Positions 28,540 through 63,653 of a stretch of DNA of 64,000 bases are shown here, in pieces. Numbering within the stretch: the first letter of the stretch is position 1; each line of letters begins with the position of its first letter. The stretch spans positions 27,096,501-27,160,500 of the forward strand of contig AP031353.1 in the NCBI GenBank assembly GCA_037833965.1. Reading direction: 5' to 3'. The stretch is from Marchantia polymorpha subsp. ruderalis. Lineage: Eukaryota > Streptophyta > Marchantiopsida > Marchantiales > Marchantiaceae. The notes below the pieces were generated by a model, which worked only from the letters and a program-made list of their open reading frames with translations, made no database searches and was not told the DNA's origin. A program made the position numbers and the translations under genes.

Positions 28540-31500
28540 TAGTAGATAGGATCTCCAGTAGGTGGCATTCGGCGTGCTTGTTTCAATGAGCCCAAGAACG
28601 CTGGAATTGGGTAAGCAGATCCTTAGCCACGAAGCTATGCAGTGGAGTACATGCTTTGACGAAGTAATAGTATCGCCTTCGACGAAGAGTCTTCAGACTT
28701 CGGCGTTAGCTCCTTTGGTATTACAGAAGAAGAGTCTTCGCTGAAGTAAAAGACGACGCCGAACGGAAAAGAAATTCAAACACTTGGATGTCAATTCGCA
28801 CGAGTTTGACATGCCGTTATGACGTCAAATTACATGGGCAGAAACGCGAGTTCAGCGTCGACATTCTGCGAGAGTGCATTTGTGAATTGAGAGCTCATGG
28901 AGGTCCCTGAGTGAGAAATTGAGAGAGCAGCGACGGGTGATCTTTGGAACTTTGATTATCATCATTGAAGATGCCGGAATTCGGATTGAAAGCGTATCAC
29001 AACGAGCTGATAGCTCAATTTTCAATTTTCACCTGCCAAGCTCAATTTCTTGCTATGGGGATGGAATTGGGTTTGCGCGGCAATGGTGCAAGAGTGCCAC
29101 GACGGACGGGCGCCGAAAATTGAGGGACTCCATGGAAACTTAGCAATCTTGACTATTGAGGATTGGATAAGGGTCTAGGACCCTACGTTGGAGAAGATGG
29201 AGATTACACTTTCGACATCGACGGCGTGAAGGTGACCTGCGCGGAAGAGAGTACTTTTGCGCCATTGTTCAAGAAACTTCGTTTGAGCAAGAACGGGTAT
29301 CGGACGACAGAGGATTGTGATCGGTTGTGCATGAATGTAGCGGTGATCCTAATGCAGATTCTTTGACCTTCGCGAACGACTTACATGACGACATGGCAAG
29401 TGTAATTTGTGAAGTGCGCGGTGGCAAGGAAGTCTATTCATTGGGCACGCATCCTATGGGGACTACACGCCAGCACATCGGCGAGACATTTGGGGGATCA
29501 GTGAACTATCACTCTCCATTCTTCATCACTTTCTACCGAGGGATAAAATTGCTAACTGCAGCCGAGTAGAAGCAATTTCTGCTTAAGACGGAGACAGCGG
29601 ACGACAAAGAGATGCTGATAGGCAATGAAGTTCCCAGCGAGGAGGACGACATTGCACTAGCACCGCCTTTGGACTAGGATGCAGTGCCTTCGGCACTGAA
29701 TTGTAGTGTAGGAGATATTCGGAAGAGTGGGCCAAGATGGGATCGACAGACGCATGAATCCACGACGAATGGCTTACGGCGGAGAACCTTCCAAGTGAAG
29801 ACTTTCAGCAATGCCTGCAAAAGAGCTGATGGAGGAAGGAGAAGAGCAAGGAGGCGATACGGAGATAGAGAACTCGAGTCAAGGTCGTCAGCCTACGATG
29901 CAACCACCCGTGTACATGTCTTTGGGTAAGGAGTATTCGGAGATATCCGCAAAATTGGCAAAGACGGTGGTGGATTTCAATTTGATGGAAGAGCTCATAG
30001 ATTAAGTAGTGGAGGACGTGGGAAGAACTATTACGGAACATTAGCTGATGTCTTCAAGTCAGATGTCTTCGAGTACAGTCGATCTAGACTATGGCGAAGG
30101 GTCTTCGGTCAAAGTCTGTCGGACTCAATGCAGCAGCCATGTTGGACTAGTGAGTAGTTCCCTTGCTCATATACTTGGATAGGAAGATGACGAAGTACAT
30201 TGAGCCAACAATAGCAAGATCCTACGTAGAGTTGGTGCGTAGCAGGACGCGTGCGAAGGTGGCAGCATCTGTGGAGGTAGCCAAAAGAGTGACGAGCTTG
30301 ACCTCTGAGTGAGCGACCGGGAAGGCTTTCTTGTAGGAGAGGGAGTAGCAACTTCGGAAATTGGAGTTAGAGTGTGCCAAACTTTGGAAGAGTTAAGCAG
30401 CAGAGAACGCAGCTTGAGTATGTGGATCTTTGGGTTGAGTTCAATGCTCATAAGTTAACGATGGAATTTTGGTATAATGTGAAAGTGTTCCGACGGGGAA
30501 TCGAGAGAGAGTTGAAGCGCTTGGAGGAGCTGTCGGCAACTCTAGCAAAGCGCGATCAATTGCACGCAACCAAATTGGCGGCGAAGGCGAAGGAATTGGC
30601 GGATTGCGAGATTGCTAGGTATTAAGGATTAGAGTAGAGGAAGAAATTGGATGCAGATTGCAACAAAATGCGATGTCAATTGTCAACAGTTGAGGAGCAA
30701 TTGATCGCAGTTTAGGCAAAATTGATGGAGACGGAGGCGATAATCTAGCAATAAGTGGGGCATACGGATGCTACGTTGTGCGCAAAGGTAAACCCATGTC
30801 TTTTCGGTTATGTGGAGTTGGAAATCCAGACGCTTAAGTGGACGAAGTTGAGTGAGCTGGAGCGCGGAGTGACAGATTTGATAGCTAGCGGTGTAACGGG
30901 GCAGCAGCAGTTAGGTAGGAAGCTCAATTCGTTCATTTCCAATTTGGAGTAGACATAAGAGAATTTAGAATTAGAAGTGATAGTTGCTTTGCATATATTA
31001 GGAGTAGAAAGAAACTCAGCGGACGTGATAACTGTCGGGTCAGTTGGCGTCAAGTCTGTTGGAGGCTCGCATCGCAGCAAATGACATTTCAGGGTGTTAG
31101 GATTAAAAAGGCACAAGGCTCTGTCTTGGGGGGCTTTTCCATTAGTTAAATCTCAGTTTTCAGTCTGCATTCCTCCGCACGTTGATGAATTATGTGTTTT
31201 ATCATTGTGCGTGAGTTGCTTCAATTTGTCGAAGATACATCATCTGAAGTAGAGAGTCCGATTCGGATATTCTGAGTAGAGCATAGTGTAGCTAAGGATT
31301 CAAACAAATCTGCACATTGGAAGCTCGATGTAGCCGGCTGAATGTGTAATATTGGAAAATTTCCCCCTTGAATATCAATTGTAGAGTCGCGCGCTGCTTC
31401 TGTAGGGTCTTATTGGAAGAATTTCAGGTTTGAATGTGATTCTACGCTGTAATACGATGACTTTGAACTTGGCACTTGGCAGTGCCTTCTAGGAGTGACA

Positions 31501-31625
31501 TGTAAGTAAAACTTCTCAATAGACTGTTAAATTGTGACAATACTTGGTTCTCTCGGTTGTTTTATCCTCGTGGGATCAGATCTTAACCATTATACTCCAT
31601 TTTGATAGTTATCTGTTATTACGGT
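28540..31625 (+). mobile_element. Unit A of an unclassified coiled-coil repeat family (degenerate)
   Basis: Seen: a mid-GC block within AT-rich DNA sharing order and sequence with 33425-36870 and 53580-55815. It starts in a cluster of CTTCG/CGAAG dyads. A conserved globular N-terminal part follows, then an acidic stretch, a long coiled-coil-rich stretch, and a terminal helical part (ELEIQTLKWTKLSELER...). A conserved non-coding tail begins GGCTCTGTCTTGGGGGGCTT and ends near ACCATTATACTCCATTTTG. It is heavily broken. No polymerase, integrase or transposase motif was seen. Inference: a dispersed, probably non-autonomous element or amplified gene family; from memory similar proteins are very numerous in liverwort predictions. 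Closest by eye to unit C. Confidence 0.75.
31571..31582 (+). other. Primer-binding-site-like motif at the end of unit A
   Basis: TGGGATCAGATC matches the initiator-tRNA-Met binding site TGGTATCAGAGC at 10 of 12 bases and is followed by the tail ACCATTATACTCC. The same motif sits at the same place in units B and C. Function is inferred only from resemblance. Confidence 0.45.
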
Positions 31626-33116
31626 TTTTTTTAAAAAAATATAAAGGCCAAAGTGCCAAAATATGATCCTTGTGCAAAAGATTTAAATTTATCTACTAAT
31701 TCAAGGAAAAAAAATATGTTTGAAAGATGAATATTCTTAAGATTCAAAACATGCAAAAATTTTGAAGAATAAAAATGACAAAGCATTCAAACAAAAAAAG
31801 TGCTTCAAATTTGGAAATTAATTAGGCCAAGATTTTCAATTAAAAAAATCTGTCAAATTACTGATGAATCAAAATGTAAGAGAATCAAAACATTTGTAAT
31901 GCCAAAATTAGGCTAATCAAAATGTAAAAAGTAAAATATTTCTAGATGGTGAAGACTTAAATGTCTAAACAAAACATAATTTGTCAAGCACATCTAGGAA
32001 TCCATATTTAAAATGTTTAAATCACAATATTGCATACAAATTTCTAAATTGTGAGTATGATGCACTTCATGACAAGATATCTAAACAATAAAAAAAAATC
32101 AAAGTAAAATTGCTAGAGTTGAAAAAAATAAGAGCTAAGATTTTAAAGTTTCATAGAACAAAATGAATCAATTTAGCAAAGAGGGTCACAACAAAAAGTT
32201 AATAGATTTAAAAAATACAAACTGCCAAAGCTTCAAAAAATTAAATACAAAGGAGAAACTTATAAGTATTTTTAATAATCTATATTTTTGGCGTCAAATC
32301 TATTCATGTATGGAAGAAAAATCACATCTTAGTTTTTAAGTACTCCGTGGCCTAGAGATAAAAACGAGCCCTTGATCTTCAATGTTGTTTTCTACAAGAC
32401 TTCTCAAATAACCTTCGTTTTTAAACTCCATGTGTTCAAGATGTTTAGATTCCATTTTCAAGTACTATAGGTTATTTGCTCCATCTTGAACTCTTTACTT
32501 CCATACAAGAGAGGAGGTAGAGGAGAAACCATTTATGAACTGGTCGATATTTAATGTCAATAAGCATAGATTGCTGAAATTAAAAATCATTACTAATGCA
32601 AAATAAAATTGAAAAAAATGTAAAATTTTGGAAATATGTAGCTGGTATAAGCAATGAACATTCAAAAGAAGATCATGTAGTTAAAAAAATAAAATTTAGC
32701 GATCTAAGATGGAATAGAGTATAAATCATACTCAATTCTTTAGAGAGAAGGAGAGTTAGAATCTAATTTTTATATGCAAAATCAAGTAGACTAATAAAAG
32801 CCTCAGTTCGGATACATTTAGGTTTTAGTAACAGGATTATATATTCAAATTATGAGCTATTTCTAATCACAAGAATTGTGAAGATTGAACAATTGAATAT
32901 TTATTTGTGATATTTTGAAATTGAAGAATGATATCAAGAACAATAGAGTTTTTTGAATGATTTTAATCGTAATGAGGATTTTAAAAGATGAAAATTAACC
33001 ATAAATTTTTGGAATTTATCTTTAGATGAGAATACATATTTGACTAAAGTTTGAGTTTTATCAAAGCAATGTTTCAAGACTTGTGGAGAAGTTCGTTTTG
33101 TAAAGTTTGCATATTG
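31626..33116. other. AT-rich gap between units A and B
   Basis: No coding signal and no recognised element. The gap ends at the 85-bp tandem duplication. Confidence 0.55.
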
Positions 33117-33289
33117 TTTTTTGATACTCATGGGATAGATAAAAGAATGACATTTCATGAAAATAATAGAAAAAAGAAAATTTGATAGTTTTTGTGGTTT
33201 GTTCTTTGATACTCATGGGATAGATAAAAGAATGACATTTCATGAAAATAATAGAAAAAAGAAAATTTGATAGTTTTTGTAGTTTGAAC
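33117..33289. repeat. Near-perfect 85-bp tandem duplication
   Basis: The segment beginning TTGATACTCATGGGATAGAT at 33121 repeats at 33206, with almost no differences over about 78 bp, so the duplication is recent. It lies in the AT-rich gap between units A and B. The paired short reading frames that start identically here (MKCHSFIYPMSIK) are a consequence of the duplication, not evidence of a gene. Confidence 0.93.
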
Positions 33290-33470
33290 TAACATGTATT
33301 GTCTCTCCACCTGATGTCACAAAGTTTGTCGGACATGTATTCAGCAACGTAAAATAGCCCCCACAGAATAGGCGAGGAGAGAAATTGAAAGATTTTTGTA
33401 AATTTAGGAGAACACTTAGTCACATCCGCAGTAATGACAGACAAATACCAAAATGGAGCATAATGGTACA

Positions 33471-33482
33471 GATTTGATCCCA
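33471..33482 (-). other. Primer-binding-site-like motif at the end of unit B
   Basis: On the minus strand TGGGATCAAATC precedes ACCATTATGCTCC, the same arrangement as at the ends of units A and C, with one extra difference from the tRNA-Met consensus. Confidence 0.4.
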
Positions 33483-36185
33483 CGAGGAAAAAAACAACCA
33501 CAAAAGTCACGATTTGTCACAGAATAGCATTCTATTAAGGAGTTTAACTTCTCAGGCCAATACCACTCCCAGAAGACACTACCCAGCTAGAGCTGAAGAC
33601 CTAGAGAGTAATGCATAACCACACTCACAGCCTGAAACTTTTCCAATCAACACATGTAGGAATCGCTTGCGACTCCACACTTATATTTCAAGGGGAAAAC
33701 ATCCCAGCTTTGCATACATCCCGACACACTAACCCGAATACTCAAACTTGAACTTGCTTAAATCCCAAGGAGCACTCGACTACTCAGAACATTCAAGCCG
33801 AATACACACAACTCCTGATGCGATAACTTCGACAAACAGGAGCGCACCGTGCTCAATGTCTGGATCACACACCAGCACACAGACACACAGTGGATGCAAG
33901 TTTACAGTCAAAACAAGCCAATTAACAGCAAAGCCCCCCAAGGAAAGAGCCTTGGGTCTCTATATTCACAATGGCAACTCTGGAATATCAACCGCCTGAG
34001 GCGAATCGGTCTCAGGGGCTGTGCCGTCCGATGTAGCGGTTACAGTGTCGGTGAACTTACATCTACTCCTAGCCTACGCAACACGTTTACAATCTGTACT
34101 TCTACATTCTGGCGCGCCTCATTCAATACCTCTAAAAATGTGTTAACTAATTCTACAATATGTTTGCGTCCTGCGGATCCGCTGGTCTTGGCGCTCATCA
34201 ACCGCCGCTCAAGCGAATCTAGCTTCAACCACTTCACCGTTTGCAATCCCCACATCGCGAACCCGTTCAGACGCTTCTCCAAACACAACTTCAACTCGTC
34301 GGTTGACTTGTCCCGTAGCTGACGGTAAGCCTCCTCTACCTTTTCCATTCTGCTTTGCAACTCCTGCGATCTCATGTCCGCCTTGCCTAACTGCTCCCGC
34401 AACCGTCAACATTCCGATTCAACCTTCAATTTACATTCGACCTCCAAAGTCCTAGCCAATTCACAATCCGCCAATTTCTTGGCCCAATTCGCTAACTCCT
34501 CCTCATGCTTCTGGCCTCCCTCCGTCAGACTTGCTGATAGCTCTTCCGCACGTCAGAATTCCGCCTCGCACTTACCTCAATCTCCGAAATCTTCCTACGA
34601 AGATCTTCTTCTGCCGTCTTCGTCTCTGCGATTTTACCCCGAAGTTCTTTGGCGATACGAACTTCTTCAGCTCTTTGAGCCTCCAATGTAGCAAGTTCTT
34701 TGATATATTTCTTCTCTCGTCTCTCCGCAGTTGTGATCAATCGCTCCGATCGTTTGACGGCCTCATCGTAAGCTTCTCTAGATTTCTTCAACCTCGTGAG
34801 CAAATCCGCTGTCATCTTCTGCCCATTCTCGTTAGACTTGCGAAGCCCACCACATGTCCCCTCCAACTCTACACACCGTCCAAATTCCTTCTCCACATTC
34901 AATTGCAGTACTTCGCACTCAATTTCCTTCTCTCAAAGCTGGGCTTCTCGCTCCTGCAATGTCGCCTTTACTGCCGCGCACTCGGTTGCCAAGTTTGCCG
35001 CTCGCTCCCGTGCCAATTCAATCGCGCGGAATCCCACTCCCTCTTTATTGCTAGTGCTCTCTTGAGCTTTGTCCTGTTTCTCACCATCTGTACATACAAT
35101 CCTGCCTCCTTCGACACAACATACTTCTCTTTCTTCCCGTCCAAATACTTCAGTAATGGAACCACACTATCCTGCAAGAAGTCGGGAAAGCAAACAACCA
35201 ACTCCTTCGGTTCCTCCTCCGAAGTCTTCATCTCTTCTTCGGATCTCACCTCTTCCACAGGAGATGACGGCAATGCAATGTCTGTAGCTTCTACCACCGT
35301 CCCTCCAACCTGCACAACAACCTACTCAAGTACCTCGTCTCTTAATGTTAACTCCTTTACCAATTCCTCACTCGTCTTTGGGTGTGATGTTTCTTCACTC
35401 CCTGCAGACCGTGTTCGCTCCGAAGACAGAGAATAAAGACTTACTATCTCTATTCCCTCCTTCAAAGGTTCTGCTGGTGCATCCGCTGTAACTTCGATCA
35501 ACACCCCCGAAGGTCCTTTCATCTCCACAGGCTGCGTCAACTTGCCCACCACGACTTCGAATGTACTCACAATCGGGGCAACTGTCTTTTCTACGCTGCT
35601 ATTCGACACTTCCGCTGCCATCAACCCCCGATTCGCCCTCTTCTTTGATCTTGCGCGAGTTCTTGACTGCCTGATTGCGTCTACTTCCGTTTCAGTTCTT
35701 CTTACTTCGAGTGCCAAATCTGCCTCGTCATCACTCACTACTTTCCTTCTCTTCGTCAATCGTCTCTCTGGCTTCTCCCGTCTCCGCACAACGTCCATCT
35801 GAACTGGTTCTCGGGCTATCGTTTGTGGTGGAATTGAGGGTTGACGGGTATCGTCTTCGGTCCCTTCATTAGACTCGGCCGTCAAGATTTCCCGCTCCCT
35901 CGGAAATCGCTTCTCCTCCTCTCTTGTAAGCAACCCCATGCCTTGGTAGAAATTCATCAGAAAATGAGTGTTGTGATTGATCAATGGTCCAGTCCACCGG
36001 GAGCTCGCATACACCTAGACAAGATCGTAAAAGATCCTTGCCCTGTGTACTCTCTGTCCCTTTAGGATTCGTTCCAAGAACCATACTTGCCGGGCCGTCA
36101 CTTACGTCGTGCGCGCCGGTCGCAAGATATGCATAATTCCCAGTGCAATCGCCCGTCTCTTTGGATCAATGTAATCCGTTGTCTT

Positions 36186-36545
36186 TCACCCGTTCGTCCC
36201 CTGCCTCCCGAAACTGAAGAGTGATCCGTAAGAGAATTCTTCAATGCGCGTAAGTCCCACGCTACCCTTCTCAAACAAAAGGTCTACGTCGCTGCCGGCG
36301 CACGGTCCCATCACATTCGTCCAATGCTCAATTGTCCACAGCATGGGATTTCCTCGAAGCTCCACGCCCTCGGTCTTGTTCTTATCAATTATCTCTTTAC
36401 AGATACTTGCCGAGACGTAGTTCCAATTCCACAAGAGGAATTCAAGTCGCAACTCGCTCAGCTCGCGTCTGAAGGGTCGCAATTCTTCGTAAGGCACATT
36501 CAAGGGAACCAATTTCCGCACCTTATCACCCTTCTTAGGCGCCAT
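36186..36545 (-). pseudogene. N-terminal block of unit B protein (119 codons)
   Basis: This is the clearest open piece of the family. It begins with a basic MAPKKGDK start and continues ELSELRLEFLLWNWNYVSAS and IEHWTNVMGPCAGSDVDLLF. Units A and C carry diverged forms of the same region. I do not recognise a named domain; plant mobile-domain-like proteins are a loose possibility based only on position and hydrophobic/Trp pattern. Treated as part of a fossil unit, not as a host gene. Confidence 0.55.
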
Positions 36546-37710
36546 GTCTTCGATTCACGTCTTCGCTGCTAGCAAGGTCGGTCGATTTCGCTCTCTCTCA
36601 CTCTCGTTCGTTCTTGCTCGATATTGCAATGTCGGCGTGAGGGCTCGTCGTACTGCCCTTACCCTTGAAGCCCTAACATTGCCTCCTCCCGCGCCCAGTA
36701 ATATTCCCGACGCATGCGAACGTCGTCCGGCCCGTTGCGCAATTTGAATTTGGATCCTATGTCTTCGCCAAAGACGCAGCTCTTGCAATGTCCAAAAAAG
36801 ACTGCGTCGAAGATCTGAAGACCCGAAGATCTTCGGCCGTAGGCGAATTCTAACTAATCCTATCATAACTCCTCATAAGCTACTCATTCTAACTCGTACG
36901 ATTACTTTCTACACAAATATCTTTTAGTTTTGTTGATTTTTAAAGAAAAACGAAAAAACTAGGCACCACATACGCCTACTCATTCTTGGAATAACATGTC
37001 CATTAAGAAACTAGGAATGCTTGAGAGGTTGGTTGTAAGATGTTATCTTGTACGAACTTATTGGTCAACAAGTCATTTTTTATATTTTAAATGTTAACCT
37101 GCCCAGGGTTGACAATCATATCCCCATGACTTAAACCTAATTAGGCCATGTCACCATATAGATAAATGTTTGCCTTCTAGTCGAGATTTCGTCCATGGTT
37201 TTCATGATTTTAGGCTCAAAATCCATATTGAGTATCCACAACCTTCGTCTAGAACCAAGTTAGTCTTTTGTCACATACTCACCTCTTTCACTTCATTGAG
37301 TCGTCATGCAGTGTCGATAAAAATATCTGCTCCAGATTATCGGGGTTCAACCACATAGTATTATGGATGGGTTTCAAGTAAAAGAAGTAGTAACCATATA
37401 TTCTACAGTCTTCCTTATCCAGTCTTTGCGATAGCTACAACAATCCAACTATTTCCGTGTTTGACTTCTTGATATCGAAAAGAAGAATATTATTTCATTT
37501 ATTCATCCTCTTTTATCCCGATGACCTCACTCGAAGTTATCTATATGAATACAATACAAAATTTTGCATCACTTTCAGCAACCACAAGAAGTGGCAAAAA
37601 TTCACCACCACAATTTATCAATACTGCGTGAGAACACTCGAGCCTCTTGTTTTTTATCTAATGGTCTTAACAGGCCAGAACACCGAAAATATCTTCACCG
37701 ATGGGTATCT

Positions 37711-37746
37711 CCAGGTGGAGACAGACCTTGGTCTATCTCCACCTGG
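37711..37746. repeat. Tight palindrome, 17-bp arms with 2-base loop
   Basis: CCAGGTGGAGACAGACC, the spacer TT, then GGTCTATCTCCACCTGG: 16 of 17 pairs. Too short for a microRNA precursor. No gene is attached. Confidence 0.88.
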
Positions 37747-40700: not shown

Positions 40701-41463
40701 TCCGTTGGTGAAGCGTTCCATCACCTAACTTGCAGAGTGCACTTCCAAACTATCCTGGGACCGCATTACGAGCTTCAGGTATTAATGCGTTGTTCTCCGT
40801 ATATCTCGAGTCCATGAAGTATCCACGGTACACACCATACAGTTCTTCGTGACTATTGGTCCGTATACAGCTCAGGCTGCACATGTGGGATACTGGAGTA
40901 CGAGAGTCAGACTCCTGATTCTTGTGCCTTCCCGTAGTTGATAGTCTGTGCTTTCGGTGGTTGTGACCTGGTTGTGCGAGCGATACTCCTATAAAAGTCC
41001 ATATTTTTCAAATTTGTGCGTCACCCATGGTACTTAAAATTCGTATTCCAGAATTGGTTTTGAGTATTACATTATTCTTCAAAAACTTCCTCGAAAAGTT
41101 CTCTAGAACATTTGGAAACTCCTCGGTAATTAGAGGACCGAAGTCCTTTCAAACGACACTCTTACGAACTTTCTCCACTTGTGCCTAAAAACGCGTTTAA
41201 AAGGAGAAAGACTTCATCCAGATCACAATTAGAAACTTTCTCCGCTTGCGTATCAAGTTTTACGAAAATGTTTCCAACTCCAATTTTCCTTCAGCAAGAG
41301 TGGGCCGATGGGTTCCGTATTATGCACAAGCGAAATTGCGATCGAACGTTCCGTACTCCAGTGATCAAGTATCGTACGAGATTTCGGTTTCAGTGAATAG
41401 TTCGTTACCGAACAAGCATAAGACGGTTGGGAACAATGGAAAATATGTGTCAATCTCAAGATA

Positions 41464-41501
41464 GGAAACGCCGAAATGCACTCAATTCTTTCGGCGTTTC
41501 C
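41464..41501. repeat. Hairpin with perfect 13-bp arms
   Basis: GGAAACGCCGAAA and TTTCGGCGTTTCC flank a 12-base loop. It lies in mid-GC intergenic DNA about 2 kb downstream of the release-factor-like gene. Confidence 0.85.
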
Positions 41502-43626: not shown

Positions 43627-45622
43627 CTAGTCCATCTCAAAGGTCATATTGAACGCAAAACAACCGTCAACCTTCAAGGGCAGTATAGAGTCCATAATCA
43701 CCTTAGAAGCACGGATTTTGTTCGCTCCTTGCCATAGTACTCTATCTGACGTTATTAGCTTAGATAAAGCGCCTGTGGTTAGCCTGAACATCCCCATGAA
43801 ACAAGACTTTAGTAGGTCTCCAACCGAACATGCTGTGTTATCCTAAAAAAAACTCCAAAATGCAATATAAATCCTTCACACGCATTCATGCGTATACTAA
43901 AACTCAAAACAACAGGACGACGTAACAATTTCCCAACTGAAGGAAAAGAGACAACTAACTATTGGTCTATTGTAGGTGAAGCAAACCCTTGTCAACGAAA
44001 TCTCTTTGAAATGAACACCCAGCAGGTTTTCCAAAAGGCAATGCAGCAATCTGCCTGGAAACAGTAGAATGCGAATACCCTACTTTCTTTTACTTAAGCG
44101 AAACAAAGGTAGGACAAGTGACTCAATTCGGAACTACTTAGTATAACACAGATGCAAAAACCCTGTCATTAGTCTGCAGATCAACTGCAGATGATATGGA
44201 CAAGACCAAATGTGAAGGACTCGAATATGACACACAAAGGCGAGAAAACATTCGTTCCTTAGTGCATGGAATCAAACTGTACCCTAACGCTGCGGCGGCA
44301 TCAGACACTGAGCCTCCAACTGCCTCTAGCAGGTCGAGCAAGCCCTTCACACCCTGAAACAAGTAATTCATATCATTAGATGCGCCTTTGAAACATGTAA
44401 GCTCGTTAGCGTATCCGGTCAGTATGCTCAAGTGGAAATAGCTGTTCACGACAGACTTGCAACATTGACTATGAGCAAAACAATTCACAGCTCACGAATA
44501 TGATACGACGGACGACGAAGCAGAAATATAACCTGAGCAAAATCAGGATGATTTGGACCAATCTTTTGAACAAGTCTGTCCTTCCGCGCTCCCTTTTCGA
44601 AGGGTAGTATGCGCACAACCTCAAGAGGTGGCTTATACCCTTCCAACTCCACACTTCCCCGTACTGAAACAAATGTGTCATCATTCTCAGTATGTTCACA
44701 TTCCTTACAGTTGAGTAAAAAAGTGATAGTCGCTGAAACAAAAATTATAAGCTTATATTTGAAAAAAAAAAATCAGTTGAGTGCTGTCTCATCGAAACAA
44801 ACCTTCGGTAGCAATAAGTTGTCGTAGTCGTCCCAGAGCATAAGCACGATTATTATGTTGTGATCGATCCTCACTAGCCTGCAATTTTAGTAGATCAAAC
44901 CACCTGAATTAGTGAAATTACGAATTTAATGTTTTGGGAGAGTAAGAATCGAAGTATAACTAATTCAGAGTTCAGAATTTGAAACGAATTTGAACGCCGT
45001 GAGATCTCGTAAATTGAGTTCGGGAGGCTCTGAAAATTGCGCCCTCTACCATAGCAGCAGAACCCTTAATCCTCCATCAGAAATTATATTCACCAACCGA
45101 AGAGTCAAGTTAAGGACATACAAAAATAAGGCCTACCTGTGTCACTAATCCGGTTGGAATGTGTTTCAACCTTACAGCACTGTCAGTTTTGTTGCGATGC
45201 TGTCCTCCCGGGCCAGAGGCCCTGTAAGTATCCATCTTGCACTGAGCAAAAAGTTCCTTGTCTGTAAGCTCTAAGTAATTCTGAGGTACATTCGATGCTC
45301 CATCCTTCACCCGACTCCTACTCTTATCAATCTGCTGAAACTTCCTAAAATCCTCTTCCCCAGTGGACTCATTGTCATCGCAATCATCTTCCAATTCATT
45401 CGATTCCACGGGTGCCTCATATGCACCATTCGTCGCAAGACAGTACCACCTGATGTGGGCTGTTTGACGAGGCAAACCTCCTGATGAACGACGCAGGGCA
45501 TCAACTTGAGGTCCAATGCGAAATACGGGAATTGGGAAACGACGAGGTGCGTACAATGTCCGCGACAGACAGTGGGTGACAAGAAAGAGCTTGACACTCA
45601 ACATCTGCATGGACGCAGCCAT
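43627..45622 (-). CDS. Organellar GGQ-domain class I release-factor-like protein, 5 exons, 306 aa
   Basis: Seen: exons 45622-45137, 44878-44803, 44663-44533, 44353-44283 and 43783-43627 join with GT-AG introns and consistent phases (0, 1, 0, 2) to a 306-residue protein. The start ATG at 45622 opens a basic, Ser/Arg-rich, acid-poor leader typical of a transit peptide. An acidic stretch follows at about 90-110. The catalytic loop [10 protein letters not shown] has GGQ at 139-141, followed by [13 protein letters not shown] and [17 protein letters not shown]. Residues 188-231 hold the [13 protein letters not shown] and KIGPNHPDF segments. A helical C-terminal domain ([31 protein letters not shown]) completes it. 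Known: GGQ proteins hydrolyse peptidyl-tRNA on the ribosome; this arrangement matches a plant family annotated as class I peptide chain release factor (Arabidopsis At1g62850 type, from memory). It lacks the codon-recognition domain of true RF1/RF2. Inference: it acts in mitochondrial or plastid ribosome rescue. Stop TAG at 43627-43629. Four of the five exons are under 160 bp and easily missed. Confidence 0.93.
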
Positions 45623-46130
45623 AGCTAACTTCCTGTTTCCTCTCCCCGTAGCTGCTCCTGCTGCTCCTCTCACTTATGTCACCACCACACGGAAGAACTT
45701 GGGCATTCTTACTGTTTCCAGTCATCCTCTCTTTCCATAAAATCATGGATTGACTGTATACTGGCCACGAAAGCCGTCCACATTCTCTTCAAGCCTTGCT
45801 TCTGGCAGTCGACGAGCCCGGAAAACATATCACGGATAAGAAAATTGAGCACCAAATTGATCGGCTCGGTTCAGCTTGCAAAGTTGCTTTCAACTTTCGC
45901 ATCTAATCCTCGAATATATTTCGTTAGATTTCAAATGTGTTTCACATACTGTTCACATACAGGTTAGTAGAATGAATCTCCAAATATGTGAATTGTCACA
46001 CGAACTAATGATTGTAATGAATATTCATATCGAATACCCACATTATTTCCAGCCGAGCATTATGAACATCAACAATAAACTTCTTCCGCCAACAATAAGT
46101 GACTTCTTGCTAGCATGCTTACTCCTATAA
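45623..46130 (-). promoter_or_regulatory. 5' flank of the release-factor-like gene
   Basis: The minus-strand sequence just upstream of the ATG at 45622 is purine-rich (GAGAGGAAACAGGAAG), as expected for a 5' UTR. The frame stays open upstream without an ATG, so 45622 is the first usable start. No clear TATA box or named cis-element could be identified. Location as promoter/5' UTR is an inference from the gene start. Confidence 0.4.
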
Positions 46131-47931
46131 GCCTCAAGTTTTAGCCTATGGATTACATTTTCCTCCTTTCAGCCGCATCCAACCGCTTCAACCAATTGGA
46201 GTTATTCCACCACTCTTTCTCTGAATAAGGACTAATGTGACTGAATGGTGTCTTGTGTATGCGGAAATTGTCTACCTAAACCACATCTTGAAATTTCAAA
46301 GAATTGGATTTATTGGGAAATTAGTTTGAACTATTATTAAAACATAAGGTTTTCAATATCATTAATACGTATCAAAGAGGTTTTTTTTTTTTGCATAAGC
46401 TTCACACTAAAGTTATTACAAAGGTTGAAAGATTATCGTACATCAATAGATAAAACTTTGAATTTTTATTAACCTAATCTTACCAAATGACCCGTACACT
46501 CTATTTTTCTTAAATAATCTAAACAATTACTAGCAATACAAATGATAGGTGTCATTAAAAAAACTTGTAGTTCTTGAACGATTCATTTGAACTGAAAATC
46601 GAATAATCTTAAATCATACTTAACTTGGTATTAATATGTTGCTTGATAAAATTTAGTAAAATCTCAAACTTCAAATAAAAAAGATGATTATATAATTCAA
46701 AAAATATTGAATTAAATGTAAACATAAAAATTTTAACTTAGCTCAATTTTGATCAAAGTATTATTTTTTTTCAAATAAATTTTATTTATATTTAAAAGAG
46801 ACACAAAAATTTGGATTTTTTACAATTATTTCATGGTAAAAATAATAATTTTTAAAGATTATTTTACAAAATATATTTTTAAAAATATCAAAAAATAAAA
46901 ATTCCAAATAATATATTTATTATATTTTGTGAAAATTTTGAAATGAAATGCATCTAACAAATTTGTTAATCAACAGAATATAAAATTTTGATCTAAAAAA
47001 TATAGTTTTTACATCATGGATAAAATCTTGAAAAACATATACACATATTTATTACAAGACTTATATGATACAGAACTAATAGATATTATCAAAGCAATTA
47101 AAATCTTGAATTATGTTAATCCCATATACAAAGTATTAAATTTTGCTTACTTTAAGTATGGATGAGATTCCAAACATTTCAAATGAAACACTTTTTGATA
47201 CATACGATAGTAGATGAGAAATGAATTAAAAGCCTGAGTTATTATGAGTAGTTTGGCATTGTGACTTGAGTTACTACTCTCAATCACGCATAAATCAAGC
47301 TCGTACAACATTATTGATATATAAAGAAATCATGATATTCCCTATGAAATCTGCTAAAAAATGTCTAAATTTTGATTAATTTTTTGAATTAAAAAATACC
47401 CATAATTACATTTTTTTATTTTTTAATACAAAGCATTAAAATTTGAAAATTTAAGTATTGTTAACTTTTTTGAATCTTTTATTTTAATTTTTGTTTAGAA
47501 ATAATTGAAAAAATTCAATATCTGATATTTAATTATTTAACACAATAAATATAATTTCGTTTTCAGATTTTTTATTTTTTTATAAATAATTTGAATTCTT
47601 GACTATTTTTAAAATTAAAAATTATACATGTTACAAAATTTAAGTATTTGTATCATGAATGATAACAATTTTCAAAATTTTGAATAATTTCTCAGATTAT
47701 AAAAATATTCATAACATAAAAATAAATTATTACATAAAAACTTCAAATTTCATGCTATATTTTAAGCTTGTTCAAATGCATGTCTTACAAATCTAAAAAT
47801 GATTTTTTAATCTTAAATTAAATTAAAATTATAAACCGAATTTAAGATTAATTGATTCATCCTACTAAAATCTTTTAATTTCCAATCTTATTTCTCGCTC
47901 TATCAAACTAATCTTTACAAAAGTAAGAATG

Positions 47932-47959
<28 letters not shown>
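47932..47959. repeat. (AT)n microsatellite
   Basis: About 14 uninterrupted AT dinucleotides in AT-rich intergenic DNA. Confidence 0.95.
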
Positions 47960-47962
<3 letters not shown>

Positions 47963-48491
47963 CAAACTATATCCAAAATATTAAATGATTCTTCGCATCA
48001 AATGACTTGGATCTCATTTTTGAAGTTCATTGATACTCTTCATTTCTGTGCATCATTAATTTTAAAAACTAATCTACTTCAACTAGGGAGGTATTGTACT
48101 TAACTTAATCTTGGTTAGCTCAAAGATGTTGCATGTGTATAAGTCTACTCTAAAATCCCTTATGATCTTGCTAGAGGTTAGTCTCTTTAGCTCGTTATAC
48201 TAGTTATTTGCATTTTTCCTTCATTTTCTTATTTTCAACTCATTAGAATTATTTTGTGCATATTTTATTTTCATTCATTCATTTGTATCCAAAAGTGATA
48301 TGTAAAATTTTGTGTAAAATTTTAAATGTTCATCTCAATCCGATGTTTCAACCAGTTCTAAATTTCATTTGTATCATACGACAATATGCAAAATTTTGGT
48401 GTACAAGATCTTTTACAAATTTTTGATCCCGCATCTTAATCAATTCTAAACTTCACATTCAAAACCTTGTGATTTATTTAATTTCATTGAG

Positions 48492-48545
48492 AAATACACT
48501 CTGTAACAATTTTGTTACATAGTGTATTTTGTAACAAAATTGTTA
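48492..48545. repeat. Nested hairpins with 16-bp perfect arms
   Basis: TAACAATTTTGTTACA (48504-48519) and its exact reverse complement (48530-48545) flank a 10-base loop. The left arm is also enclosed by AAATACACT / AGTGTATTT, so two competing folds exist. Confidence 0.85.
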
Positions 48546-50074
48546 AGCTATTTGGTTTGCTACGTCCAATCTTAATTTGACAATCTTTGTTACTACTTTT
48601 GAAAGCCAAACCTTGAATTTAGGCTATCTTAATGCAAGTTATAAGCTTTCTTTTTTTTGAAAAATAGATCAGAAAATATATTATATTATCCTATTTAAAA
48701 AACGACATTCCAAATGTAAACTTCAACTTAAAAATCAAATCAGATCACATTTTTAAATTTCCTATTGAAAAATTTCTTTCATTCTTTACATCAACTTTTG
48801 AAAAGTGTTTGAATATTAACTCTCTATTCTTATAAAATAATCATTGTTTGTCAAATATGTGTTTAATGAGTCTAATATTTGTTCATCTCAACGTCATCTA
48901 TTTGTATCTTGCCATTTGACTTTGTCATTTTTCTTTCATCAACATTTATATTTGTTTTATTTGTTGACTGCAATATATTTTGTCACCTCAAGTTTTTGAA
49001 AGTTGTCAATTGTCTTGCTTTTTCTTTAGTGTTTCAAAATGTGTCTAAATTTTTGTTTCTATAAAATAATTTTCTTTTAAAAAATATATCTTGGCTTCAT
49101 GGATTAAGTATTTTGATTTTTTGAATTTTAAATTTGGCTTATTTGATCTACTTTTCAAAAGTAAGGAATTAATTTAAAGCTTAAGAGAAGCTAGTTTATG
49201 CTTGAATAGTTGATTTAGAACTTAAGTGAAGCTAATTTATGCCTTGAATGAAATAGAATCATCTCACATGAGAAAATCAAATCTTAAGCTTTTGACATCA
49301 TTGTATGCTATTTTTGTGCATATGATTTTGTCATCTCTTTATTTTTTATTCTTCTCATTATGGATCCATTCATTGGTCATCAAAGAGACGATTTGAAATC
49401 ATTGTCCATCATCATCTATGCCAACGTAAAAACTTTGTTGCCAACATAATAGTTTCTTACGGATGAAGTTTTTCAATATTCTGGTTATAATTTCAAAACT
49501 CACACAATGAACACACACAAAATAAAAAAACCAATATACAACATACATAATTTACTTCTACATACTAAACCTTTGTATTGGGTAAAATTATCTAAGTATA
49601 AATATGAATACATAGATAATTTTACCCACATTTAGTAAATTTAAGTCATATGCTTAACAACAAGGATATGAAGGGGCATAGTATCTAGAGTTAGATTCAA
49701 ATCTAGTAGTAAATTTCTAGAGAGTATGATGGTTTTATGTTAGAAATGTTACAAAATAGTCATGTCAAAAAGTAATGTCTTGTCAAGACCAAAGATGCTA
49801 ATATTTTTTTAGCCAATGTGGACAAAAGTTTGATGCTAAGAAAGATGACTTGTTCAAAGATAATAAATGATGCTAGAGATATACGCTATGCAATTTATCA
49901 AAGAATATAGTTGATGTAAGGATCATGAACAATGCTTATTTATATAAGATTTGATATATTAAGAAATTTTTATATATTTTTTCAACATCAAACGGTTTAC
50001 TTTTTATGTAAAATGATTAATAATGTAGTATTGAGGATATTAAATCTGTTAAGATCCAAATACTTGATGGATGT

Positions 50075-50076
<2 letters not shown>

Positions 50077-50120
<44 letters not shown>
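50077..50120. repeat. (AT)n microsatellite
   Basis: About 18 AT dinucleotides followed by one GT interruption and a few more. The longest simple repeat in the window. Confidence 0.95.
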
Positions 50121-50260
50121 TGATTTAAGTTTAAATTATACTTGATATGAGAAGTTTTTTAATCTCTTTGATAATGTGAATTTCAAAATGTTTTCAATGG
50201 AACTGTGCAAGAAAATGTTCAAGAGTAAAATACGTTATAAGATTTTATTAAGAGAAGTAT

Positions 50261-50900
50261 TGTAAGACCGATTGTTGCATGTGTGAAATAATTATAGTTT
50301 AAAAAACCAATGAGTTAATCATGATTAGTTTAGATATAACTAAGTATATCTAATTATTACTAAATTTATCTAATAATGACTAAGTTCAATTATGATGTTT
50401 AAAATTGGAGAAATAATCAATAAAAAATTAGAAAATTTGATTGAGCATTATTATTTTGTCTCTCACAAAAGTCTAGATTTTAAAGTAAAATACTCTTGAT
50501 TTCATGATTAATTTTGATTGGTTTAAGTAATTAAAGAAAATTAAGACAAAGTCTAAAGCTAACTTAATAATAAATTGAGGTTTTAGAAATTTGAAAGTCT
50601 TAAATGGCATGTTGAAAAAGAAACTTCCATAAGGTTTAGGTAAGCCAATGTCATGATGCCACGTATGAAGAACTAGTAAAACTACCATAATTTATTGTAG
50701 TAAAAGTAAATTATGAAATCATTATCAAATGTTAATCTGGTAATTTTTTAAGCAGTATAAATAGAGAGGTAGAGAAACCCTAAAACCTAACTCAAACAAG
50801 TTTTGATAGTTCTTTGTGTGAGAATTTATTGCATAAATAAAAGTTTGTATATAAAAGTTTACTTTTGAATATTGATAAGTGTTTGCAATTGAGGGTTGAG
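50261..50900 (+). repeat. LTR-like promoter region, plus orientation
   Basis: It starts TGTAAGACC, contains GCCAATGTCATGATGCCACG (from 50644) and a TATAAATA box at 50756-50763. It is followed by a transcript-like leader. A diverged copy lies inverted at about 52.5-53.2 kb with the same order and spacing. The right end was not firmly placed. Likely one LTR of a decayed Ty3/gypsy element; family inferred from the nearby reverse transcriptase scrap. Confidence 0.6.
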
Positions 50901-51559
50901 TGGAGAATTTGTGTGTGTGACTGATGTTTGGGACAAAGACATCTTGGAAAATCCTTACATTTTGGAATCATAATAGACTATCAAAAATCATCTGAATTAC
51001 ACCTAAATGAGATTCATTCTAGAGATCACAGTTCTCTATCTTCATTTTTTATCTTTCTCGAGCATGAAAATCAAGACCTGAGCTAGATGCACATACACTT
51101 TCATAAATCTACAATAAAATCTAGTGAGCCCTAAAATGTTTGTCAATTGAGTTTCATATTCTTGTGTTGTTCATTTTTTGAATGGCTTCTATCTTCTCAC
51201 TCATTACTTGAATTCTTGCGCCTATAACTTTTCAATCTAGGTAATTTATTTTTGATTTGTCAAATTCACAATTTAAAACTTTGACATACAATTCATTTTT
51301 TTTCAAAACTAGAAATACTTCTTGAAAATGAAAACTATGATCACTCTAAATTTTGTTATACATCAATATATCAGTTAGAAAATCAAGAACATATTTATGT
51401 ACATAAGCACAAAAAATATTATTCATCAATGTCATGAATAAAGCTTGTGTATTAAATTAAAAGTGAAACCAAAAGTCATCAAAGTGATCATATATTCTAT
51501 GAAAAACAGTCTTATGAATATCTTCATCTACAATTTAAATTCAATTGTATGTGCTCTTC

Positions 51560-51870
51560 AAATCTTAATGGTTGAAGTATTTCTCTCCTTGAAGTTATCA
51601 AGTAAATCATTCATAAGAGATTATAAAAATTTGTTTTTTATCGTTTGCTGGTTCAATCCACAATAGTCGATGCATAGTCTCATAGATCCATACTTCTCTT
51701 TCACAAATAGCCCTGGAGTTTCATAAGATAAAAAATTTGGTTGAATGAATACTTTGATCAACATCTTTTTAACTTGAGCTTTGCATTCTTCCAATTTGTT
51801 GGGAAAAAACAATATGGAACTTTGAAAGTTGATGTACTTCCAGATATCACCTCAATCTTGTGATTTATTC
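51560..51870 (-). pseudogene. Ty3/gypsy reverse transcriptase fragment (fossil)
   Basis: On the minus strand a block reads [26 protein letters not shown], matching the first conserved motif of gypsy reverse transcriptase (SP-PV-FVKKKDGSLRLCIDYR-LN). Weaker matches extend downstream. It is a short broken scrap lying between two LTR-like regions. Confidence 0.82.
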
Positions 51871-52499
51871 ATTTCTTTGGTGATAATCTTGCTAATAGAT
51901 TATCTAAAAATACATCTCTATAATTCATAAAATTGTTGTTCAAAAATTTCAAGATATAAGGTTTCTCTATAAACCCAATATTTCTTATAAATCCAAGAAA
52001 ACATAAATCATCTTTAAAAAATATGCGTTATTGATCACAAAGAAAGATAAATTCCTATTTTTTGATCTAATTGTTTCTCTATAGATCTTACAATCAATTC
52101 TTGTTATCACTTTTCTTTTCCAATCTACTATCGAATTATATTGCTTCACCATTTCAAACTAAACAAATTACTCTTCATTTTACACTTTGTGCTAGTGTTC
52201 TATCACTTCACTTTATATGTTTGGCAATTCAACTTACTCAATTACGTCTTTAATCAACATCAAATCTAATTTCATAACAATACTCTATGACAAAAAATTA
52301 TAAAAAACCTCTAAACTTTATGTAATGAGTAAGATCACGAGGCAAGTTTACTTATGATTTTTGTTTCTTAAACTCACTTTTTCAACTTCTTCACACTTCG
52401 TATTGCAAACTCTGGACTAACTCTCACTTAGATTTATCTCAGATAGCTTAGCGGTTGCTCATCATGTAATGAGAATTCCAAGATTTCCTCTCATGCTCA

Positions 52500-53209
52500 T
52501 GTCTCAAGCCACTCTCATACAATATCTCCACTAATCACACACATCGACACTTTAAGATATTGAAAACCTCACTCCTTCATTGATGAAACAATCCTAAACA
52601 AGTCTTTATCCAAAAATCTCTCCAAACTTGCTTGAGAATATATAGAGGTATTGACTTCTATATATAAATTACTTGGAAAATTACTATAGTAACAAATGAT
52701 AATTTCTATCTAACTTATTTTTACAAAGATAAATCATAGTAAATTTGATAAGTTACCAATACGTGGCAACATGTTATTGGCCTCCTATATCTTCTAGATA
52801 TTTACTAATCTCTAGCTTAATGTGGCAATATGTCATTTGTGCCTTACCAACTTCTGCAACATCCACTTGTCACTAAGTAAACTTTAGACTTAGTTTAATC
52901 AATGAACTATTCGTTATTTAATCGAACCAATGAAACTAAACATGAAGTGAAAAAGTGTTTTTTTCTTGGTATCTAGACTTTTATAACTTATACTAGACCT
53001 TAGACATGAAAAAGTAGAAATGCTCATTCAAATATTCTTGAACTTCTCTAGTTAATCCGCCTAGTATAAACATTATAGCTAAACATAGTTAAAACATAAT
53101 GAACTTAGTTATAACTAGCTAGATTTAGTCGTAACTAAGGTAACCATGATTGACTCCTTGACTACTTCTAATTCTATTTCAGACATATAACATCTGGTCT
53201 TGTAGTACA
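52500..53209 (-). repeat. LTR-like promoter region, minus orientation
   Basis: Read on the minus strand it has a TACAAGACC start, GCCAATAACATGTTGCCACG (52762-52781) and a TATATATA box near 52658-52666. The distance from motif to TATA (about 93 bp) matches the plus-oriented copy (about 90 bp). It lies upstream of, and in the same orientation as, the gypsy reverse transcriptase scrap at 51.6-51.9 kb. Confidence 0.6.
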
Positions 53210-53579
53210 CTTCATATTGTTAAGCGGTCGTTGTTATATAGATTGTATTTCTTGTGATGCTAGTCAAATTTGGCAAGATTTGGCAATGTGATCCATAATT
53301 CGCATGTATAGCATTAAAGATTGTCATGAATTTTTTTATTTTTTTTTGAACCATTACATTATTTGCATCTTCTTCTTGCAAATTTGAAACTCCTTATACT
53401 GTTGCAAAATCTTCTCTACATCAAAGGTTTACTAACTTTATTGGCGTATGACAAGATGAATCTCAAAAAATGCTTAATGATTCACGTGTGTGATAATATA
53501 AACATCCAAAATTAGTTGAACAATTGCAATTGCTTCAATCAATGTGAATGAATTACTTATTGTAATAAATGATGAATAT

Positions 53580-55815
53580 CAAAATGGAGCATAATGGTAA
53601 AGATCTGATCCCACCAGGATAGAAACAACACCAGAAATTCAATTACTGTCACGAATTAACATTCTATCGACGAGTTTTACTTCTCAAGCACATATCACTC
53701 CCAGAAGCATCTGCAATTGCTAGGTCAAAGGCGACAGAAATGCAGGATGTAATCACATCTAGATCTTGAAATTCATCCAATATACACCATAGAAATCGCA
53801 AGCGACTCTGCAATTGATATTCAAGGGAAAAAATTTTCAAGATTACACACTCAGCCGGCTACACCGAGCAAGCAATGTAAAGGTTTGCTAAAATCTTAAG
53901 CTACACTATGCACTATTCAGAACACTCAAATTGGACTCTCTACTTCAGATGCGATATCTTTGACAAATTGAAGCAACTTGCGCACTATGACAAAAGACAC
54001 AACTCACGAACGTGCGGAGGAATGCATACTTAAAATTGAAAACTGACTCATGAAAAAGGCCCTGGAAGGCAAAGCCTTGGGCTTTTTTATTCACAACGAA
54101 CATCATCCACCAGCTGCGAGCTCCCATCAGATGCAATGTCCGCAGATGCGGTAGTTGTCACATCCGCAGAGCTCTTGTACACTCCTATTCTACTCAAAAC
54201 TGCTGCGAGCTCTAACTCTAAATTCTCGTTAGTCTCTTCTAAATCAAAATGAAAGAATCGATCATTTAACCTAATTTCTAATGTCCTACGACTCCGGTGG
54301 CTTCCAATTACTTCAATCGACCCTCCACCGTATCCAATTTTGTTCACTTCGTGGTCTGAATCTTCCAATTCACATACCTGCACGGACATCGCTCTACTCT
54401 AGCGCGCAAACCAGCATCTGCCTACTATTCAAGATGTTGGACAGTCGTCTTTGTCTCCACCAATTTTGCTTGAGCCTCAAACAACTGCTCCTCAACTGCA
54501 ACTGCTTGTCACTTCAAAGGCCGAAGATCTTTTGTCAAAACTCATTCGTCTTGCGTTTCTGTTTCTTACGCTTCCACTTCAGCCCATTCTACCGAAGTTA
54601 GTTGATGTTGCAAAATTGCTTCACTTCACTCCATACTTTCCACTTCCTCTTTTTGTCGGCGTGCCTTCACCTTAGTGCTCGAATGCGTACTTGTCGTCCT
54701 CATTCGCATAGGAATTGGCCTCTTGGTCCGCAATTTGATACGTCGACCAACAACCTCTGAAGCCAAAGGCATCTGAAATTTCCTTCTTCTTTTTGCGGTA
54801 TGTTCCTAAACGTAATCTTCAGACATGTCAACTTTGACTGAAGGCAGTGCAGGTTCAACGTCATCATCACTGACAACTTTGTTATCTTCCAGCACTCCTT
54901 CGTCATCTGATCGCGCAATCTCCCTCTCAAGCGAGAAGTTTCGAATCTCTTCTTCGGTCAATAATCTCATAACTCGATAGAAATTGATAAAGACAGGAAC
55001 AGATAATTCATTGATCCTTCAAACATGTCCTTGACATTCCTGTGATTGGTACTCCACAAGATGCGAGCCAAGTGAATTGGCTTCCCCGCCACTTCGCGTT
55101 CCACAAATTCTACTTGCCAACATGTCATGTACGTCATTCGCGAAGGCCACAGAATCTACATTAGGGCCACCGCCATATTGAGTCTCAGTGGATCGCGGTA
55201 ATCCATCGTCCATCATCCATTCTTGGACAAGCAAGGTGTCTAGAATAACTTCGCGAATGTCTTCTACTCGGACTGTGTCATCTTCACGCTTTGACTGTCA
55301 TAGATGTAATCGCCCGCCTTATCTACACAGGACCCCAAGACTTGAGCCCAGTGCTCAATCGTCCAACTATTAAGATTGCCAAGAATTCCGTTGTACTCTT
55401 GCTTTGTCCCTCATGCCACTTCTTCACAATCGGCGTTGAAACCTAATTCCAACCCCAAAGCAAGAAATTGAGCTTGGCGGCTTTCAGCTCTTCGCGATAT
55501 GCTCTCAATCCAAACTCCGGCACTTTCAATACCTTCAATCGAAGTCCCAAAGCTCTTCCTGATTGCTGCGCTCTCAATTTCTCACTCGCGATCCTCGCTG
55601 AATTCCCAATTTAAAATGCATTCTCCGGAAATGTAAGTGCGAAACTCTCGTTCCTGCTAATATCTCTCGACGTGCTAATCGCATTGTGAACACGTGCAAA
55701 TTGGTGGTACGAAGGACAAATTTTTCCTTCCGATCGACGTCGCCTTTCACTAAGACGAAGTCCCTTTGGCTATAAAGCCGAAGGTACTTCTTTGTCTTTG
55801 CCTTATCATGTCAGC
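53580..55815 (-). mobile_element. Unit C of the same repeat family (short copy)
   Basis: Seen on the minus strand: a 5' end with CTTCGG/ACTTCGTC dyads, the N-terminal block (near 55.0-55.6 kb), a shortened middle, the C-terminal helical part (about 54.1-54.3 kb) and the conserved tail ending ACCATTATGCTCCATTTTG at about 53.58 kb. At about 2.2 kb it is about a kilobase shorter than A and B; the missing material corresponds to the acidic and coiled-coil middle. Heavily broken. Flanked on both sides by AT-rich DNA. Confidence 0.75.
53602..53613 (-). other. Primer-binding-site-like motif at the end of unit C
   Basis: On the minus strand TGGGATCAGATC, identical to the unit A motif, precedes ACCATTATGCTCC. 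Confidence 0.45.
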
Positions 55816-63200: not shown

Positions 63201-63653
63201 CTCGAGAGTGGATTGTGAGGAGGGTGAGAAGAATTCAAAAGGGAGAGGAAATTTACCAGGTGGTGGACGGGCTGTTGCAGACGGAATGGGACACGCAGTA
63301 GAGTCAGCTAAAGCGGCAGCAGCAGCTCGCTCCCTCTTCGAAACGTATCGGCCAGACGGGAAAGGAAGAGCTGCGGGCCTGACCTGCTGATTTCTCTGTA
63401 CGATGCCACTGCTGATGGGAGGAAGAGGAGCAACTGGCATAAATCCTGCGGCAGTAATGTCGGCACGGCCAGATGATGCCGGAAAAGAAGATCTTGTGTC
63501 AAAGGGAAGCATCATCTTCATTCGCTTCGCTTCTCTCTGATCAGAATTTGCCCTCATTTCCGCCAGCAAAGGTCCCTGGTGCCCATTTTTTTCGACCTCA
63601 GTGCGGGGTTTGTCGTCCTCTTCAGACTCGTATGCAGCAACGAGAGCATCCAT
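60201..63653 (-). CDS. WDR25: WDR25-like WD40-repeat protein, 4 exons, 521 aa
   Basis: Seen: four minus-strand exons, 63653-63177, 62717-62489, 61919-61432 and 60572-60201, join with GT-AG introns and phases 0, 1, 0 into one 521-residue frame. The start lies in a strong context (ACCATGG). The first residues, MDALVAAYESEEDD, resemble the acidic start of animal WDR25. Residues 1-159 are low-complexity, basic and Pro/Ala-rich. Residues 160-215 are a linker (SLDYVVRGSEIL...). From about 218 the WD40 propeller begins (LEGH 219-222), with LLASAGMD, RIWNVW, KLWDIRSGK, STSDIAKRNASDRAIIVWD and VTGSADG stretches, ending HPVLPSVVVSCGWDGRICVYE. Known: these stretches and the blade order match WDR25, a relative of the splicing factor PRP17/CDC40; its own role is poorly known. 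Inference: a nuclear scaffold, possibly linked to RNA processing. Human WDR25 is of similar length (about 540 aa). The TAA stop is embedded in AATAAA (60199-60204). No damage is visible, so it looks functional. PRP17 itself is less likely because the propeller matches WDR25 better. Confidence 0.93.

Follow-up and report, generated by a model that had tools for sequence, protein, structure and literature searches.

Three units in a Marchantia polymorpha window belong to a large mobile-element family with TGT...ACA ends and 5 bp target duplications

The sequence examined here is a 64,000-nucleotide window of Marchantia polymorpha subsp. ruderalis (AP031353.1, positions 27,096,501 to 27,160,500), part of contig C4 of a 241.5 Mb genome in nine contigs (eight of 24–33 Mb and one, C1, of 5.6 Mb), and it carries three related units, A, B and C, that we assign to a large mobile-element family. 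A first-pass annotation had proposed three homologous copies of a coiled-coil protein unit, and tblastn with eight query frames bore this out, since both an N-terminal block and a coiled-coil/C-terminal block were matched in A, B and C, with no fourth site in the window at E 0.001. The units stood but their boundaries did not, and these were moved from 28540–31625, 33425–36870 and 53580–55815 to 28414–31623, 33430–36970 and 53561–55829, respectively. So delimited, all three are discrete insertions, each beginning with TGT and flanked by 5 bp duplications that are exact for A and C and match at four of five positions for B.

Unit A (28414–31623, plus strand, 3210 bp) is a complete but decayed element that runs from TGTGATAACTCAG to TTATTACG, its final base not being the usual A. 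It lies between exact copies of gtttt (28409–28413 and 31624–31628), a case weakened by low-complexity, T-rich surroundings. Its interrupted N-terminal globular block is at 28968–29566 (tblastn with the domains from loci L036 and L034, E 1e-32 and 7e-34), and its coiled coil and C-terminal helical block are at 30154–30940 (frames from locus L048, E down to 5e-34). Unit B (33430–36970, minus strand, 3541 bp), also complete, has TGTGGTGCCTAG at its 5′ end and GTCATTACT at its 3′ end, again without the usual final A, and in unit sense is flanked by gcgta at the 5′ end (36971–36975) and gcgga at the 3′ end (33425–33429). It contains a stop-interrupted N-terminal block at 35916–36515 (E 4e-41, L036 domain), a coiled coil and C-terminal block with the sequence KWLKLDSLERR at 34112–35285 (77–84 % identity to the L048 copy), and a non-coding tail at 33430–34040, defined by tail search and alignment, with the conserved subterminal motif TACCATTATGCTCCATTTTGGTA. 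Directly outside its 3′ end, at 33114–33286, are two 85 bp tandem copies with 97 % matches. Unit C (53561–55829, minus strand, 2269 bp) has the ends TGTAAGAACATATGG and TTTATTACA and exact ataag duplications in unit sense (55830–55834 at the 5′ end, 53556–53560 at the 3′ end), with an interrupted N-terminal block at 55000–55553 (E 7e-34, L036 domain) and a C-terminal helical block with a shortened coiled coil at 54248–54517 (E 2e-19).

Several structural points made in the first-pass annotation held. The non-coding tail of roughly 550 bp was correctly described, as was the CTTCG-rich leader: CTTCGG/CCGAAG occurs nine times in B (1.8 in shuffles, run for B alone of the three units), four times each in A and C, and 19 times in the other 55 kb. 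The differing decay of the copies was likewise evident, with A and C 71 % and 65 % alike across two stretches, the unit B tail 90–93 % identical to its relatives, and many open frames in the subfamily of the L036 copy described below. No credible reverse transcriptase or integrase was found inside the units in a motif scan of frames of at least 90 aa, in agreement with the earlier impression. Two short motif matches, at 34267 on the plus strand (antisense to B) and at 54113 on the minus strand (in C), look like chance.

The first-pass annotation had suggested a genome search with the unit B tail for fixed termini and target duplications, and both were found. Scoring of 40 of the 975 first-look candidates genome-wide yielded 40 near full-length matches, namely unit B itself and 39 others at 90–93 % identity, besides four shorter or weaker pieces. 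Nineteen loci of 10 kb each were fetched around such matches; the body of unit B was mostly 80–90 % alike to them, and alignments to the unit B region ended abruptly at two fixed points across copies, giving an element of the form 5′-TGTGGTGCCTAG...GTCATTACA-3′. Both ends were legible in 13 of these B-type copies, the remaining loci lacking one end in the alignment. Exact 5 bp duplications flanked 11 of the 13 and at least four bases matched in all 13. When ends of different copies were paired as a control, none of 156 combinations matched exactly and four matched at four or more bases. Unrelated ends, which the first-pass annotation would have taken as a refutation, were not seen in these 13 copies. 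Genome-wide, the exact B-type end words occurred 149 times (3′) and 72 times (5′), and the subterminal motif TACCATTATGCTCCATTTTGGTA in its GRTA form, with up to three mismatches, occurred 1009 times against one for a control.

Two loci display the element as an insertion into other sequence. At L041, a B-type element with its own duplication (ggaac/agaac, four of five bases) has landed downstream of the integrase in a Gypsy-type pol frame, which it splits; by eye, an unbroken homologue of this frame is present at the start of L043. A copy lying within a known autonomous element had been named beforehand as evidence against the proposal, but here the copy is itself an insertion that breaks its host frame and so is no refutation. 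At L052, a B-type copy sits, by eye, within the N-terminal block of another unit. As separate observations, the pol frames of L041 and L043 appear by eye to carry a cysteine-rich, PHD-like stretch in the C-terminus beyond the integrase, and the B-type copy at L037 contains a 115 bp tandem duplication.

A younger subfamily was recognized at L036, where a 5.3 kb element with the ends TGTGGTAACCCAC and GTGGGTTATTACA and the flanks gcccc/gccct is nested in a B-type element. Its inverted ends, TGTGGTAACCCAC and TGTAATAACCCAC, form a 13 bp inverted repeat with two mismatches. The 5′ edge was represented by eight alignment rows, corresponding to seven distinct edges from six loci. Among ten rows at the 3′ edge, the GTGGGTTATTACA end was present in L036, L046, L016 and L008, with L027 a repeat of L036; TTATCACA or TCATTACA closed the remaining five, which represent other subfamilies. 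Genome-wide we counted 6697 young 5′ ends with at most two mismatches (3444 and 3253 by strand; control 36, 15 and 21), 1020 by a strict 24-base word, and 5456 young 3′ ends by an exact 28-base word (2737 and 2719 by strand; control 0). In the part of C1 covered by the listed 3′ ends, 13 of 42 strict 5′ ends could be paired with a 3′ end no more than 5.4 kb away on the same strand. Ten of these 13 candidates were tested, leaving out two in repeated segments and one (2407701) that had its 3′ end in common with a tested copy; the inspection covered their ends and flanks. Perfect 5 bp duplications flanked eight of the ten, with ends 2.3–5.3 kb apart. Such size variants with their own duplications are as expected for derivatives mobilized via their ends.

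These data show that the three window units belong to a large family of mobile elements, each inserted as a unit with TGT...ACA ends and a 5 bp duplication. The first-pass annotation had offered two readings, a non-autonomous element that encodes a protein of its own, or a family of genes dispersed by some other element. The fixed ends, the duplications, the insertions into the L041 pol frame and other units and the thousands of ends support the former. The latter is not supported, because the ends belong to the unit itself and its flanks share nothing at the junction: we compared 16 upstream (up to 600 bp) and 54 downstream B-type flanks, the latter reduced to 44 distinct loci after removal of ten identical pairs, and found neither a sequence common at the junction nor a linkage to gag-pol. 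A few downstream flanks do have 90–150 bp in common at 79–81 % identity, farther out and at varying distances.

The distribution of ends was uneven between contigs. C1, which makes up 2.3 % of the genome, holds 41 of the 149 exact B-type 3′ ends and 26 of the 72 exact 5′ ends, an excess of about 12–15 fold for these older ends, and 68 of the 1020 strict young 5′ ends, an excess of about threefold. C1 may be a sex chromosome. Between about 2.03 and 3.20 Mb on C1, one set of element ends recurs three times with equal internal spacing (e.g. at 2253450, 2646914 and 3012995), which suggests that segments several hundred kilobases long are repeated there. A spacing class of 9.4–9.8 kb on C1 (five of the 42 5′ ends, two in repeated segments) was considered as a possible longer partner and rejected, as at least two of the spans contain 3′ ends on the opposite strand; the class likely reflects nesting.

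TG...CA ends with 5 bp duplications are also the usual signature of plant long terminal repeat (LTR) retrotransposons, and our elements share it, including the TGTNR pattern. The units could thus be giant solo LTRs, in which the whole 3.5–5.3 kb unit is an LTR with a protein gene inside and nearly all copies have lost the internal part by LTR–LTR recombination. In favour of this, C1 shows an excess of 3′ ends paired on the same strand 6–12 kb apart (29 versus 17), which possibly stems from the repeated segments. Other observations fit poorly. Self-comparison of eight full B-type copies revealed neither terminal direct repeats nor long inverted repeats, and that of the L036 element only short internal repeats and no terminal direct repeat. 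No excess of primer sites was found after the young 3′ end, where 314 matches to TGG within 0–5 bases compare with 360 to the control GGT, some places being doubly counted, against at least 5456 ends; and the initiator methionine tRNA primer site occurred 0 times within 12 bases past CATTACA, the B-type end to which that search was confined. Two candidate LTR pairs (C7:5503615/5516978 and C1:1782879/1786346) proved to be independent insertions with differing 5′ flanks and no purine tract, one copy being nested by eye within another unit. A purine-rich stretch at L018, between copies 435 bp apart, was considered as a polypurine tract but reads by eye as part of a third unit, namely its coding body. 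The spacing of the ends is only 2.3–5.3 kb even in the young copies whose duplications are perfect, and the B-type flanks described above share no junction sequence. In short, the copies read lack LTRs and the flanks read lack a common internal domain, and we consider the solo-LTR explanation quite improbable.

The only gene seen in the family was examined in the younger copies. A full young-type element comprises a structured leader, one intronless frame some 885 codons long and about 1.1 kb of tail (about 0.55 kb in unit B), and the frame encodes in order a helical globular N-terminus, a low-complexity acidic middle, a coiled coil and a helical C-terminus. In L036 this frame was pieced together from three parts in one reading frame with stops between them and no sign of an intron. 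A genome search with the L036 N-terminal domain gave 7921 first-look candidates, of which the best 150 matched at 84–100 % identity; by manual count the matched stretch was stop-free in 85 of these 150, and stop-free frames among them exceed 800 residues. Three young-type N-terminal domains aligned without gaps over 208 residues, and third codon positions were the most diverged in each pair (0.245/0.120/0.466, 0.279/0.226/0.548 and 0.337/0.250/0.514 for first, second and third positions). The domain is therefore under purifying selection in the three copies compared, indicating that the protein matters to the element. The young-type and window N-termini display 37–38 % identity over their longest stretches (tblastn).

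The leader also has distinctive features in the young L036 element. This element contains 14 GCCTTCGGC palindromes, against 0.035 in shuffles, and six GCCTACGCATAGGC palindromes, both crowding the leader and the middle of the frame, so that in L036 CTTCG-type palindromes occupy coding as well as leader sequence. As RNA, the GCCTTCGGC palindromes would form UUCG-tetraloop hairpins; this longer palindrome is not present in unit B.

Comparison with domain and structure databases did not assign the protein to a known family. No Pfam model reached its cut-off in nine frames, and the best match among 26 domain rows had E 0.015; NCBIfam returned only SMC-like coiled-coil matches, at best E 2e-5 and 22 bits, far under the cut-off. 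PDB sequences gave nothing at E 1 with profile A3, and a single PDB match to the L036 frame at E 1.4 was dismissed as noise. An AlphaFold model of the N-terminal domain, built from 26 rows representing 20 elements, had a predicted local distance difference test (pLDDT) of 72.3 and a predicted template modelling score of 0.74, with ten helices and one three-residue strand; two of the five models exceeded pLDDT 70 and the others reached 42–46. Foldseek with this model found nothing at E 0.001 in the PDB (29 matches at E 10) or among viral models (55). As predicted, the N-terminal domain is mostly helix, unlike the RNase-H-type core of DDE enzymes. The domains PF20167 ('Transposase_32') and PF10536 (plant mobile domain) are presumably helical look-alikes with a similar motif order. 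PF20167 gave no genome match at E 10, the control genomes being silent too, and none in the nine frames, and a search of the 26 domain rows with a limit of E 1 returned neither domain.

Alternatively, the encoded protein could itself be the transposase. Its catalytic core would then have no sequence relationship to those known, and the family would be a self-sufficient transposon of a new kind. It is the sole gene seen, it is under purifying selection in three copies, it has been kept across subfamilies whose N-terminal domains are only 37–38 % identical, it matches no known fold, and size variants carry their own duplications. Against this, only some 200 residues look globular and are modelled as nearly all helix (pLDDT 72), the rest being low-complexity sequence and coiled coil, and to our knowledge the known enzymes that produce 5 bp duplications have RNase-H-type cores. 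We regard a self-sufficient element as unlikely. Plants are rich in deletion derivatives of DNA transposons carrying captured genes, and the units might alternatively be derivatives of a CACTA, hAT, Mutator, Harbinger or Tc1 element with a captured host gene. The 5 bp duplications (11 of 13 and 8 of 10 copies) and the TGT...ACA ends do not fit such an origin, and the gene is common to the subfamilies read and hence not a recent capture, so that this explanation seems very improbable.

We favour, at roughly an even chance, a transposon family with retroviral-type ends that would be moved in trans by an unlinked integrase-type DDE enzyme, its own protein serving as an accessory. An enzyme of this type is proposed because TGTNR ends with 4–6 bp duplications accompany the integrase-type DDE group (PMC2836005, PMC10045372), and an accessory role because the sole globular part of the protein looks all-helical. 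Catalysis would fall to an enzyme of the retroviral-integrase or Ginger type encoded elsewhere, and the element's protein, rather than acting as transposase, may bind or bridge both ends or recruit that enzyme. Several observations count against this proposal. No enzyme or longer partner with the family ends was found, no genome-wide search for an autonomous partner having been made, and the integrases of the genome have no established tie to the family. The open frame kept in 85 of the best 150 N-terminal matches is unusual for elements mobilized purely in trans. A matching duplication is absent in two of the ten young copies, one of which is probably mispaired, as a second 5′ end lies nearer its 3′ end. 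The terminal A is altered in units A and B. To these must be added two points discussed above, namely the excess of paired 3′ ends on C1 (29 versus 17) and the LTR-like character of the ends and duplications.

Beyond the three units, the window contains other features, all recognized by eye and all on the minus strand: a frame at 20958–21452 resembling the terminal (reverse transcriptase/RNase H) part of a Copia-type pol, a frame at 45110–45673 with the motif of a relative of class I peptide chain release factors, and WD-repeat frames at 60201–63653 suggestive of a PRP17-like mRNA-splicing gene.

The family is potentially a substantial part of the genome. If most of the approximately 6,700 young 5′ ends belong to elements of 2.3–5.3 kb, the young type would occupy very roughly 15–35 Mb, or 6–15 % of the 241 Mb genome, a share that we infer from end counts and that truncated copies would reduce. 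'Unknown' repeats are mentioned for the Marchantia and Lunularia genomes (PMC5784723, PMC9985172), and the family could account for part of them. Its recognition would remove a set of supposed coiled-coil genes from the annotation, and it offers a clean test of whether LTR-element integrases mobilize other DNA in plants. No published description of the family was found among the titles and abstracts listed in searches of the open-licence PMC literature, which is weak evidence for its absence from print.

Among known systems, the Ginger2 elements TDD-4 and TDD-5 offer one close comparison. Ginger2 ends in TGTNR and its TDD-4 and TDD-5 members have 5 bp duplications (PMC2836005); the present family shares these ends (here TGTGG and TGTAA) and duplications, and the copies read are likewise units without LTRs. 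The Ginger2 elements encode an integrase-like transposase, whereas no such enzyme was seen in the family copies read. The same text gives inverted repeats of 40–270 bp for Ginger1 and 50–180 bp for Ginger2 (PMC2836005), far longer than the imperfect repeat of about 13 bp in the young type, and self-comparison of the eight full B-type copies reported none; this difference also weighs against the favoured explanation. GingerRoot of the clubmoss Selaginella lepidophylla is an example of an integrase-related DNA transposon in a plant, with occasional TG..CA ends, but it has 6 bp duplications and mostly TA..TA ends, and is tied to Ginger via its transposase (PMC10045372).

Plant LTR retrotransposons and solo LTRs have the TG...CA ends and 5 bp duplications in common with the family, but the copies read carry no second terminal copy, primer-site excess or shared internal region, and the unit carries a conserved frame some 885 codons long. 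A further comparison is with the non-autonomous LTR elements: terminal-repeat retrotransposons in miniature (TRIM), large retrotransposon derivatives (LARD) and the gag-only TR-GAG all have terminal direct repeats, and the gag-only forms carry a structural protein. They resemble the family in high copy number and the lack of an enzyme, and differ in their terminal direct repeats, which were not found in the eight full B-type copies or in L036. The resemblance to Ginger2/TDD is thus incomplete because long inverted repeats are missing, and that to LTR elements because no direct repeats or primer site were found. In sum, the ends, duplication and gene content together fit no known repeat class, and by its ends the family resembles both Ginger2/TDD and LTR elements while fitting neither fully.

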